Positions 1 to 64,000 of a DNA stretch of 64,000 nucleotides are shown here, piece by piece. The first letter of the stretch is position 1. The number at the start of each line of letters is the position of its first letter. This DNA is from Ridgeia piscesae (lineage: Eukaryota > Annelida > Polychaeta > Sabellida > Siboglinidae). Under the pieces are notes generated by a model that was not told the origin of the DNA, did not search any database, and was given only the letters and a program-made list of their open reading frames with translations. Made by a program: the position numbers and the translations under genes. The stretch lies in the NCBI GenBank assembly GCA_025642075.2, contig JAODUO010000567.1:172501-236500 (forward strand), written 5' to 3'.

Positions 1-68
1 CACAAACAATCGCACACACGCACGCACGCACGCACGCAATCGCACTATGGTTAAATATTACGTGACAG

Positions 69-2322
69 GGTTTGCTGTCACCACTGTCAACATATGGCTC
101 AGCGATGACCGTAACGACACAACAAGGAGTTTGACGCTGACAGATGATACTGGCCGACAGATCGAGGTCTACCGCACGGGGGCGCTCACTGTGCATCGTG
201 AGTAGCCTCTACAATCTACGTCATACAGCAGTGTTTCTCTGTATATTTGTTTGTAGACGCACATCTTTGCATGTATCCGGCTAAAATTGTGCATATAATC
301 AAGAGTGGGATGGTTCTTTGTTTTATATTTTTATATACACTGAAGTCGACGCTGACATGTATTGTTTATTCCACTGACAACTCAAAATCATAACGTCGTA
401 AGATTAAGTATTTGAAAATTGAGGCGTTGATTGGTTTCAGGTGCGCCGTGGAATGGCGATATTGTCCCCGCTGCCAAGAGAAGGACCAAGTCCCACCTCG
501 TGCTACTCGCCCTCCTTCTGCTCCTATTATTGCCGATGGGTTACTACCTCGCGTACAGGTAACACCGTGTACAGGTAACACCATGTACAGGTAACACCGT
601 GTACAGGTAACACAGTGTACAGGTAACACAGTGTACAGGTAACACAGTGTACATGTAAAACAGTGTACAGGTAACACAGTGTACAGGTAACAATGTGTAC
701 AGGAAACACCGTGTACAGATAACACTGTGTACAGGTAACACAGTGTACAGGTAACACTGTGTACAGGTAACACAGTGTACAGGTAAAACAGTGTACAGGT
801 AACATCGTGTACAGGTAACTTTGTGTACAGGTAACATCGTGTACATGCAACATCGTGTACAGGTAACACCGTGTACATGTAACACCGTGTACAGGTAACA
901 CCGTGTACATGTAACACCGTGTTCACGTAACACTGCGTACAAGTTATACCGTGCAAAGAAACGCCGTGTACCGGTAACACTGTGTACAAGTCACAACTTA
1001 ACGCAGTGTGTATGTAACATCGTGTACAGGTAACATTATGTACAGGTAACACCGTGTACAGGTAATACCGTGTACAGGTAACACCGTGTACAGATAACAC
1101 TGTACATGTAACACCGTGTACAGGTAACACAGTGTACAAGTAACATAGTGTACAAGTAACATAGTGTACAAGTAACACTGTACAGGTAACACCGTATAGA
1201 AGAAACACCCTGTACCGGTAACACCGTGTTCAGGTTACACTGTGTACAAATAACACCGTGTTCACGTACCACTGTGTACAAGTAACACTGTGCAAAGGAA
1301 CACCGTGTACAGGTAACAATGTGTATAGGAAACACCGTGTTCAGGTAATATCGTGTACAAGTGACATTTTGTACAGGGAACAAAATGCATAAAAATCGTG
1401 TACATGACATTTCCTACACACTATAATTACTTCGTGTACAATGTGACACAGATAACACAGGTGACACAGGTGACACAGGTGACACAGGTGACACATGTGA
1501 CACAGGTGACACAGGTGACACAGGTGAGACAGGTGACACAGGTACACATATAATCGTTTGCAGTTAACAGATGACATCGTAAACAGGAGATATCATCACG
1601 TATATATACCATCTTGTACAAGTAGCATCGTATAAAAGTAATATCGTGTACATGTCACACAGCATAACATCAACGTAACAAATAACTTAATTTAAAGGTA
1701 ACAACAGTAAACGCCACGCAAAATGAAAGCTTCTCAAAAACATAATTACGATAATATCGTGTAGCATTTACATTTTTCCGGGCGTTAAAAACTATCCGGA
1801 TGACGTTTCTGAGAAGTTGCGATTAATGTCAAATCATCAACATACAGCGTAGCGCAAAGCATCTATGGTATAAATATATACCACAGAATGTTCGTTAGGA
1901 CGTATATATTTCAGCAGTGTTATTTATCGCAAATTAACAAGAGGCAAACATTCTGAGGCATGTTTTGATAGCAAGTGCAAATCACGTGACTGCAGTGCGC
2001 TATAATCCGTGACAATGATTTAAACAAACTCTTCGCAACAATAACCATAACCAGTGGTATTTATACCACAAATGCATTGCGTTTCGCTGCACACTGAAGG
2101 GTTTTGCATTTATCGCGCATGCGCAGAAACGTCATTCGGATCTTTCATCACTCCGGAAAAAAACGTAAGCGCGACAACCTGAATTGTCCATGTTCCACCA
2201 GGTGGCGTAGCGGTCGTTACGATTGGCCCGACATTGAGCCTGGCGACGCCGACAGTGACTCGAGTACGGACAGTGTATTGGACACACTCGAAATGGAGAT
2301 GCGGAGGTGTGGCTACTGGTGA
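69..2322 (+). CDS. 3' end of a type I membrane protein (gene 1), tandem paralogue of gene 2; 5' part outside the window
   Basis: Three exons join in frame: 69-197 (acceptor after GTGACAG, donor GTGAGT), 441-558 (acceptor TTTCAG, donor GTAACA) and about 2127-2322 (acceptor GCGCAG; 2100 would also keep the frame). Exon 1 is the last strand-rich part of an extracellular domain, with one NDT glycosylation site. Exon 2 carries a basic stretch (KRRTK) and then a Leu-rich membrane helix ending PMGYYLAY. Exon 3 is a basic then acidic, Ser/Thr/Asp-rich cytoplasmic tail ending CGYW. Exon phases (1-1, 1-2, 2-stop) and exon order match the last three exons of gene 2, and exon 1 aligns with 15373-15504 (shared ATTV-like start, Ser-Leu-x-Leu, and VY-T--L-V end). 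I do not recognise the family. The tail exon is the least certain part. Confidence 0.65.
559..1412 (+). repeat. 16-bp minisatellite made of copies of the gene 1 membrane-exon splice donor
   Basis: The unit is GTAACACCGTGTACAG, about 50 copies with point variants. It starts at the exact donor of exon 441-558, whose end reads GCGTACAG|GTAACACC. Every unit therefore repeats a CAG|GTAACAC-type donor. Both variant types (ACC/ACA, TACAG/TACATG/TACAAG) and degeneration towards the 3' end suggest an old array. Confidence 0.92.
1443..1543 (+). repeat. 9-bp array, unit GTGACACAG
   Basis: About eleven near-perfect copies follow the 16-bp array. The unit again contains CAG|GTGAC, so it looks like a shortened descendant of the donor-derived repeat. 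Confidence 0.85.
1544..2099 (+). other. Rest of gene 1 last intron, no gene seen
   Basis: The sequence is AT-rich and unique-looking. A few degraded copies of the GTAACA/TACAAG motif persist to about 1700. I see no open frame or RNA gene. Confidence 0.5.
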
Positions 2323-2891
2323 CGTCACCGGGGCGGCGTGGTGACACGGGTGACGTTGTGGGGGGTCACGCAATCACATGACCTGCCTATGAAATGAAAT
2401 TATTACGATTTGGGGTCATTACCCGCATGCATGCGAAATCTCATTAGCGATGTTTTGGAGATCACTTGACTTCCCAGTGACGTGTCACTGACGGTGGTGT
2501 TGGGTCACGTGATTTTCACTGCATGGAGATGGCCACATGACCTACAGTGGCGTATCACTGACAACAATATGAGGCGGTCACATGACCTCCATATGACGCG
2601 TCATTTCCGACTATATGATGGTTACGTAATCTCATTGTGACGTCACTGGTGACCTGTGTCCGTCTGCAATGGCTGAACATACACGCGGCGTTCTGTAAGG
2701 AACACAAAAGTGTAGCGTTGTAGTAAAAAGCCCGTCGCGATTTAATGAATTGTAATGTAATGTAATAAGACGTACGTGTAATTTTTAAAGACAAAAAAAC
2801 ATTAATTGTTGTATTGGTAAAACAAATGTGTAATAGTAAATATAATGGCAAAACGCTGCATTTATTGAGGTCGGCATTGTGTGCGTGTTAT
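2323..2891. other. Downstream of gene 1, no gene seen
   Basis: This is probably 3' UTR and flank. There are several loosely repeated GTGACGTCAC/TCACATGACCT motifs between 2320 and 2660. No convincing exon is visible. An AATAAA occurs at 3162, beyond the pentanucleotide array. Confidence 0.4.
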
Positions 2892-61858: not shown

Positions 61859-61879
61859 GTAGGTTGTTGCTGGTGTGTT

Positions 61880-64000
61880 AAACACAACTACACAGTACAT
61901 TTGTTACATGGACCAAACACAACTACACAGTACATTTGTTACATGGACCAAACACAACTACACAGTACATTTGTCACATGGACCAAACACAACTACACAG
62001 TACATTTGTCACATGGACCAAACACAACTACACAGTACATTTGTCACATGGACCAAACACAACTACACATAACATTTGTCACATGCACCAAACACAACTA
62101 CACAGTACATTTGTCACATGGACCAAACACAACTACACAGTACATTTGTTACATGGACCAAACACAAACTACACAGTACATTTGTCACATGGACCAAACA
62201 CAACTACACATAACATTTGTCACATGCACCAAACACAACTACACATAACATTTGTCACATGCACCAAACACAACTACACAGTACATTTGTCACATGGACC
62301 AAACACAACTACACAGTACATTTGTTACATGGACCAAACACAAACTACACAGTACATTTGTCACATGGACCAAACACAACTACACAGTACATTTGTCACA
62401 TGGACCAAACACAACTACACATAACATTTGTCACATGGACCAAACACAATCTACACAGTACATTTGTCACATGGACCAAACACAACTACACATAACATTT
62501 GTCACATGGACCAAACACAATCTACACAGTACATTTGTCACATGGACCAAACACAAACTACACAGTACATTTGTTACATGGACCAAACACAACTACACAG
62601 TACATTTGTCACATGGACCAAACACAACTACACAGTACATTTGTCACATGGACCAAACACAACTACACAGTACATTTGTCACATGCACCAAACACAACTA
62701 CACAGTACATTTGTCACATGGACCAAACACAACTACACAGTACATTTGTTACATGGACCAAACACAAACTACACAGTACATTTGTCACATGGACCAAACA
62801 CAAACTACACAGTACATTTGTCACATGGACCAAACACAAACTACACAGTACATTTGTCACATGGACCAAACACAAACTACACAGTACATTTGTCACATGG
62901 ACCAAACACAACTACACAGTACATTTGTTACATGGACCAAACACAAACTACACAGTACATTTGTTACATGGACCAAACACAACTACACATAACATTTGTC
63001 ACATGGACCAAACACAACTACACAGTACATTTGTTACATGGACCAAACACAAACTACACAGTACATTTGTTACATGGACCAAACACAACTACACAGTACA
63101 TTTGTCACATGCACCAAACACAAACTACACAGTACATTTGTCACATGGACCAAACACAACTACACAGTACATTTGTTACATGGACCAAACACAAACTACA
63201 CAGTACATTTGTCACATGGACCAAACACAACTACACATAACATTTGTCACATGCACCAAACACAACTACACATAACATTTGTCACATGGACCAAACACAA
63301 CTACACAGTACATTTGTCACATGGACCAAACACAACTACACATAACATTTGTCACATGGACCAAACACAATCTACACAGTACATTTGTCACATGGACCAA
63401 ACACAACTACACAGTACATTTGTCACATGGACCAAACACAACTACACATAACATTTGTCACATGCACCAAACACAACTACACAGTACATTTGTCACATGG
63501 ACCAAACACAACTACACAGAACATTTGTCACATGGACCAAACACAATCTACACAGTACATTTGTCACATGGACCAAACACAACTACACAGTACATTTGTC
63601 ACATGGACCAAACACAACTACACATAACATTTGTCACATGCACCAAACACAACTACACAGTACATTTGTCACATGGACCAAACACGATCTACACAGTACA
63701 TTTGTCACATGGACCAAACACAACTACACAGTACATTTGTCACATGGACCAAACACAACTACACATAACATTTGTCACATGGACCAAACACAACTACACA
63801 GAACATTTGTCACATGGACCAAACACAACTACACAGAACATTTGTCACATGGACCAAACACAAACTACACAGTACATTTGTCACACGGACCAAACACAAC
63901 TACACAGTACATTTGTCACATGGACCAAACACAACTACACAGAACATTTGTCACATGGACCAAACACAACTACACATAACATTTGTCACATGGACCAAAC
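61880..64000 (+). repeat. 35/36-bp minisatellite running off the window end
   Basis: About 60 units of CATTTGTCACATGGACCAAA plus CACAACTACACAGTA. It starts about 20 bases after the HELLS exon 16 donor (GTAGGT). Variants are TTACATGG/TCACATGG/TCACATGC, CAGTA/CATAA/CAGAA and one-base insertions (CAAACTAC, CAATCTAC). Many overlapping open frames are artefacts. Confidence 0.96.

Follow-up and report, generated by a model that had tools for sequence, protein, structure and literature searches.

Why should tandem arrays in one stretch of an annelid genome so often begin or end on the edge of an exon? The question is raised by 64,000 nucleotides of the Ridgeia piscesae assembly GCA_025642075.2 (contig JAODUO010000567.1, positions 172,501 to 236,500 of the forward strand, hereafter the window), which holds two paralogous genes for one-pass membrane proteins (genes 1 and 2), a globin gene, a GLTP gene and the gene for the lymphoid-specific helicase HELLS. 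Minisatellites make up 33.6% of the window, so some coincidence with splice junctions is to be expected. The original prediction held that every gene here carries at least one array whose unit spans a genuine exon edge, and that this happens too often for chance. We find that the repeat unit holds true coding sequence together with the adjoining intron or untranslated sequence, that the genuine edge is the outermost copy, and that the array lies on the non-coding side. In all probability, these exon-edge minisatellites stem from short tandem duplications straddling the edge, which grew on the non-coding side while selection kept the outer copy.

Arrays do span eight of the nine exon edges that had been listed (Table 1), six of them firm (11609, 20328, 31883, 52223, 55956, and 60889) and two of uncertain kind. 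Of the latter, the edge at 558 is either a donor or an in-frame stop codon (TAA, 560-562), and that at 24560 either an acceptor in the 5' untranslated region (UTR), as seems implied, or merely the start region. The ninth site, at 15504, is a two-copy duplication and not an array. Edge arrays are accordingly present in the window genes as claimed, with the qualification that the in-window edge of gene 1 is the ambiguous one at 558; another gene 1 array sits on the donor of an exon upstream of the window (L002:7213-7494). The claim of some 70 decoy splice sites in a single intron holds for gene 2. Five further arrays end 7-25 bp from a junction and do not span it (18961-19123, 32422-32587, 54438-54581, and the two such arrays of HELLS in Table 1).

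Table 1. Exon-edge arrays and related features. Positions are those of the window, or of L003, the 10 kb of the contig that follow it; a slash marks the cut; the last column counts decoy copies that keep the splice dinucleotide at the cut.
Feature	Position	Strand	Unit and copies	Edge	Decoys
Gene 1 array	553..1382	+	16 bp x 52	First unit spans TACAG/GTAAC, cut after 558; end of membrane-spanning exon	24/27
Gene 2 acceptor array	8628-11633	+	42 bp x 72	AG ends 11609; last unit spans acceptor and ~24 exon bases	70/71 (AG, intronic units)
Gene 2 exon-end duplication	15479..15571	+	Two copies, 47 bp shift	GC donor, cut after 15504	
Globin intron-1 acceptor array	20311..20908	-	35 bp; 6 regular units (20311-20519), then degenerate	~18 exon-2 bases per unit; exon 2 = 20328-20103	5/5 (AG)
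Globin start-region array	24541..25615	-	45 bp x 24	Last unit holds ACAG/GACC ATG and first exon 1 codons (coding sequence 24556-24459); cut 24560	19/23
GLTP acceptor array	31818-31892	+	23 bp x 3.4	AG ends 31883; 9 exon bases per unit; exon 31884-31939	2/3 (AG)
HELLS gene	46296..61858	+		16 exons placed, one end uncertain; another exon in L003	
HELLS donor array	52222-52545	+	33 bp x 9.8	CTACAG/GTGAGT, cut after 52223; 2 exon bases per unit	8/9 (GT/GC)
HELLS donor array	55954-56027	+	16 bp x 4.6	CACGAG/GTAAGA, cut after 55956	4/4 (GT/GC)
HELLS donor array	60862-61608	+	38 bp x 19.9	Cut after 60889; 28 exon bases per unit = end of TVIIFDSDW	16/16 (GT/GC)
Array near HELLS acceptor, not spanning	54671..54739	+	17 bp	Ends 7 bp from acceptor	
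Array near HELLS donor, not spanning	61880..64000	+	35 bp	Ends 21 bp from donor 61858; runs past window	
HELLS exon-end array	L003:2004-8596		33 bp x ~199 (6.6 kb)	Starts at exon end (Tandem Repeats Finder start 2004); longer than any window array	
Stop-codon array	L003:9079-9997		29 bp	Starts on apparent stop codon of last exon	

Of the rival explanations, chance survives best: in a minisatellite-rich genome some arrays will touch exon edges, and the touching copy will be terminal since exons do not tolerate arrays. The third of the window occupied by arrays speaks for it. As a null model we placed a seeding unit uniformly, the expectation being (unit - 1) x junction density; this took the place of an earlier null that compared array edges with junctions, and is fairer because any unit can be the seed. 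Eight of the 51 junctions placed in the window are spanned, against 1.09 expected (51 arrays, no filter; Poisson P 2e-5), and the six that remain without the two uncertain edges still exceed that expectation (P 9e-4). Among the junctions that were not placed are a donor near 54.9 kb, one HELLS acceptor near 56.7 kb, and one GLTP donor. A complexity filter was on in the first counts (window expectation 0.74, with 41 arrays; first myosin batch 0.67) and off in the final ones.

Because the window had been picked by eye and its count was post hoc, a sample was drawn outside it, from Pfam myosin and kinesin exon loci (n = 90, 91 kb, 28 arrays, 196 junctions) in the genome searched (628 Mb, 4875 contigs). 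It takes in 71 of the 75 myosin-head matches, the other four (two on contig C3590, two on C272) being left out, and 30 of the 128 kinesin matches in order of E-value, with two multi-stop rows skipped. A fixed rule was used to call junctions automatically, before any repeats were scored; junctions below the score cut (4/96, 0/46, and 2/60) were removed before the count. Seven of the 196 are spanned against 1.81 expected (no filter; P 0.0026), an excess over uniform seeding of about 4-fold. The exon-edge effect therefore reaches beyond the window, though outside it the effect is about four times rarer (8/51 vs. 7/196, Fisher P 0.004; firm window cases 6/48, P 0.024). Exon-facing array edges gather at junctions as well, with 13 of 25 lying between 45 bp inside the exon and 49 bp outside it (P 0.014).

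These numbers give chance something on its side, since the spanned share drops from 16% in the window to 3.6% in the sample, which marks the window as a rich pick, and the first 92 sample junctions gave an excess at P 0.03 only. Nonetheless, uniform seeding of ordinary minisatellites does not account for the junction counts, whether in the window or in the sample, and the units carry true coding sequence, unlike those of an array born inside an intron. We consider chance unlikely, and the original prediction was right that the coincidence exceeds it.

Where the repeat units break bears on how the arrays came about. The unit is 16-85 bp long in the observed cases. We compared breakpoints in a set of 19 arrays, six of which come from a separate 200 kb sample (two at L004, one each at L002 and L010, two at L019) and have exon lengths set by hand; L014, which looked possible, and the later-found L089 and L091 are left out. 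The exon share of the unit runs from 2/33 to 43/53 bases, with a mean of 0.48 and a spread that does not depart from uniform (Kolmogorov-Smirnov P 0.28), and the strict motif AGGTRAGT occurs in only 2 of 93 array units. Donors (12) and acceptors (7) are both involved (P 0.36), and the two differ in the side of the exon that bears the array. Unit length is divisible by three in 5/19, so that there is no frame bias and the idea of frame-preserving units was rejected.

A second rival, also raised in the original prediction, is a mutational process directed at splice-site sequence, be it slippage, template switching, or R-loops. It would explain the excess at junctions, and in the outside sample six of the seven spanning arrays are on donors. 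With breakpoints falling anywhere, and with a start region and a presumed stop codon serving as edges as well, neither splice-motif slippage nor R-loops find support, and the splice motif was rejected as the driver. A link to transcription direction is likewise not supported in the set of 19, even if the donors of the outside sample point the other way. We regard a splice-directed process as improbable, somewhat more so than chance.

The remaining suggestion of the original prediction, that a boundary was duplicated in tandem and its outer copy kept by selection, is the one which the anatomy of the units supports. A short tandem duplication would first arise with its breakpoints across a donor, acceptor, start codon, or stop codon, after which either copy would be usable. 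On the side free of constraint, slippage or unequal exchange would then lengthen or shorten the array; the outermost copy, being both protein-coding and spliced, would be retained by purifying selection. Such an array would confer no gain on the gene, whose transcripts are presumably still spliced correctly since no other site lies as close to the exon as the outer one. As to why edges should be favored, our guess is that their conservation keeps a duplication-prone seed alive for long, so that arrays are reborn there, whereas seeds deep in introns decay.

Several points weigh against this account and should be set beside it. By eye, the array at L053 merely abuts its donor, and without it the sample count falls to 6/196 (P 0.011). 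Intronic edges alone are not significantly close to junctions in the outside sample (6/18 near a junction, P 0.09), which makes the test of edge distance a weak one. Paralogues in the sample are not independent (the flanks of L098 and L100 are identical), the sample is donor-heavy as said, and junction use throughout was inferred from protein homology and splice consensus. Finally, if exon-proximal units were the youngest a growth polarity might be seen, and 11 of 15 slopes are negative, but interior controls drift likewise, the stepping method used being subject to drift at the ends of arrays.

It could also be that the arrays are themselves selected, repeated splice sites serving to buffer or regulate splicing. 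GT or AG is kept in most units, and arrays persist in three myosin paralogues; decoys may, on the other hand, survive just as recent copies of the unit, there is no frame bias, and in genes 1 and 2, which are diverged paralogues, the arrays stand at different junctions. Selection for the arrays is in our view very improbable. Hardly to be credited is an assembly artefact in which repeats were mis-joined to exon ends, since, although array copy numbers are hard to assemble and HELLS has a disturbed-looking exon near 54.8 kb, units differ within arrays and, on several contigs, there are loci where the exon sequence they hold runs on in place into its coding flanks.

HELLS offers the clearest cases. 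The gene was identified by a Pfam SNF2 match and by PDB entry 9z04 (Lymphoid-specific helicase), and its exons, joined over the three array-bearing donors, align to 9z04 without gaps (WLQ/LLYENG, MLHE/LLSPF, DSDW/NPQQDLQ), so that the predicted gene model is secure. The exon in L003 aligns to the C-terminus of 9z04, and the stop codon at L003:9079 presumably belongs to HELLS too. The exon after TGTPLQNNL (54748-54910, plus strand) looks disturbed: the expected continuation is preceded by a near-duplicate of that stretch and lies in a different frame. It may be a broken exon, an unplaced intron, or an assembly error.

The globin gene lies on the minus strand, and its three exons give an intact frame of 152 codons that matches globins, the best match being 8oup, 'Nerve hemoglobin', which we take to be from the polychaete Aphrodite. 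Intron 1 interrupts a codon after its second base (AA/G, the K of LLFLKYFKEYP), a placement that agrees with B12.2 as judged from phase and sequence. The GLTP exons rest on a Pfam GLTP match.

Gene 2 has no Pfam match at E 0.1. Two of its exons have relatives in L002, upstream of the window, with 31% identity (the exon of the acceptor array vs. L002:5424-5606) and 40% identity, and on this resemblance we take the L002 relatives as the probable upstream part of gene 1. The arrays of these diverged paralogues stand at different exons, apart from degenerate relatives, seen by eye, of the 16-bp unit of gene 1. These occupy 15976-16400 (plus strand), beyond the final exon known for gene 2, which is homologous to the membrane-spanning exon of gene 1; the counterpart of the gene 1 edge, AG/GTAA at 15976, is likewise readable as an in-frame stop. 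Decayed retrotransposon-like fragments lie elsewhere in the window on the plus strand, at 29415-29640 (a weak RVT_1 match, below the family cut-off) and at 34606-35153 and 5679-5936 (similar peptides, by eye). Scanning the window against Rfam and for tRNA genes gave no hits.

Beyond the window, the 200 kb sample comprised four stretches of the window's own contig and 16 of other contigs (7/16 partly N); its arrays were judged by eye and enter no junction count. At L004, a stretch of the same contig whose content was not known beforehand, two arrays each lie over an acceptor of a PPP phosphatase gene, and across the second of these junctions the joined peptide can be aligned with calcineurin, PP5, and other proteins. 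More donor arrays were seen by eye at L002, L010, and L019. In the myosin and kinesin sample, exon-edge arrays occur at L049, L055, L073, L079, L089, and L091, and at L049 the sequence that encodes YFNQHIFKFEQ recurs, donor included, from unit to unit. The exon ends of L049 and L053 differ, and the idea that the two share a myosin junction was therefore rejected.

Three myosin paralogues on contig C411 (L073/L084, L082, and L083) carry an array at the same junction, from which it follows that arrays outlast gene duplication and alter in length. Their exon DNA is 97.5% and 93.8% identical to that of L073, the arrays at best ~84-85%, and the arrays measure ~870, ~490, and at least 500 bp as read from alignment coordinates. 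This trio is a natural series for the study of array evolution. On contig C1015, a myosin gene of striated-muscle type (L076, L080) has adjoining copies of two exons (profile 121-152 and 91-120), which are perhaps mutually exclusive.

Whether exon edges are true birth hot spots of minisatellites, in annelids and cephalochordates alike and by a shared process (edges prone to duplication, or conserved edges acting as long-lived seeds), is a broader idea that we hold only tentatively and would not yet wager on. If it were true, a rate of ~3-4% of junctions, as in the sample, would put arrays in their thousands into each genome. Decoy splice sites would then be a permanent burden, and the arrays would supply material for the sliding and gain of introns. 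Should the edge excess hold genome-wide, it would reveal an unrecognized bias in where tandem duplications arise or persist, and the duplication route to new introns could be tested in related species. Introns with 10-70 near-identical sites beside the real one are also natural tests of how the spliceosome chooses (the nearest site, the strongest, or exon definition).

Arrays of this anatomy have been described before, in amphioxus. Ebner et al. (2010; PMC3087553) reported 'mirages' in the globins BflGb6 and BflGb9, with that of BflGb6 at the 3' end of the B12.2 intron, and, in the accessible part of the paper, Adh3 and other loci are cited, regular splicing is described as seemingly undisturbed, and a route to intron gain is proposed. 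A mirage in PGBD5 was added later, with TnC cited in the portion available (PMC3902484). It might thus be supposed that the window is simply amphioxus DNA, its arrays the published mirages and its globin BflGb6 or an orthologue; both the anatomy and the side of the intron agree with BflGb6, where the mirage takes in the last part of the B12.2 intron and the first part of exon 2. This is next to inconceivable. The genome contains Eryth_link_C (seven matches, best E 9.8e-26), the annelid hemoglobin-linker family, and three striated-myosin exons score best at 332-325 bits with scallop and squid chains, against 318 for Myosin-7 and at most 293 for insect chains. The globin unit is 35 bp and not 150-160, although a weak 159-bp period is present. 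No GFP match was found in the genome, a weak argument as 14 control genomes were silent too.

By its anatomy, then, and probably not by shared descent, the system resembles the mirages. As far as the accessible text of these papers goes, both have tandem units over 5' or 3' exon edges, many decoy AG or GT dinucleotides, and variable copy number, and the globin array appears to sit on the same side of the same intron as in BflGb6. The genuine edge is again outermost and the coding frame intact (in the globin and at the gap-free HELLS junctions), the HELLS exon near 54.8 kb being excepted as uncertain. On the same partial view of the sources, our case differs in its annelid host, in the many loci of one genome with an estimate of chance, in the start and presumed stop edges, and in its copy numbers, which are higher (72 in the window, ~199 in L003). 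Normal splicing and somatic instability are among the reports for amphioxus, whereas the arrays here are known from the genome sequence alone; the length variation seen here, in the three myosin arrays of differing extent, is between paralogues and not alleles.

Introns are also said to be gained by tandem genomic duplication, where an intron is created by a single duplication event within an exon. The duplicated sequence carries splice signals in both situations; here, unlike there, it is the edge of an existing intron that is multiplied. Polymorphic or large intronic minisatellites are known from protostome genes, as in abalone TSSK1-like (PMC6905558) and earthworm metallothionein (PMC12783039), and the accessible parts of these papers describe no units that span an exon edge. 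Our literature search, with subscription papers largely beyond its reach, found no exon-edge arrays reported outside cephalochordates. The anatomy itself is not novel, having been published for amphioxus down to the 3' end of the globin B12.2 intron in what we could consult, and the kind is already known. What is new is its presence in an annelid and an estimate of its frequency against a null model, by which a curiosity of amphioxus genes is extended to another phylum and quantified in one genome.

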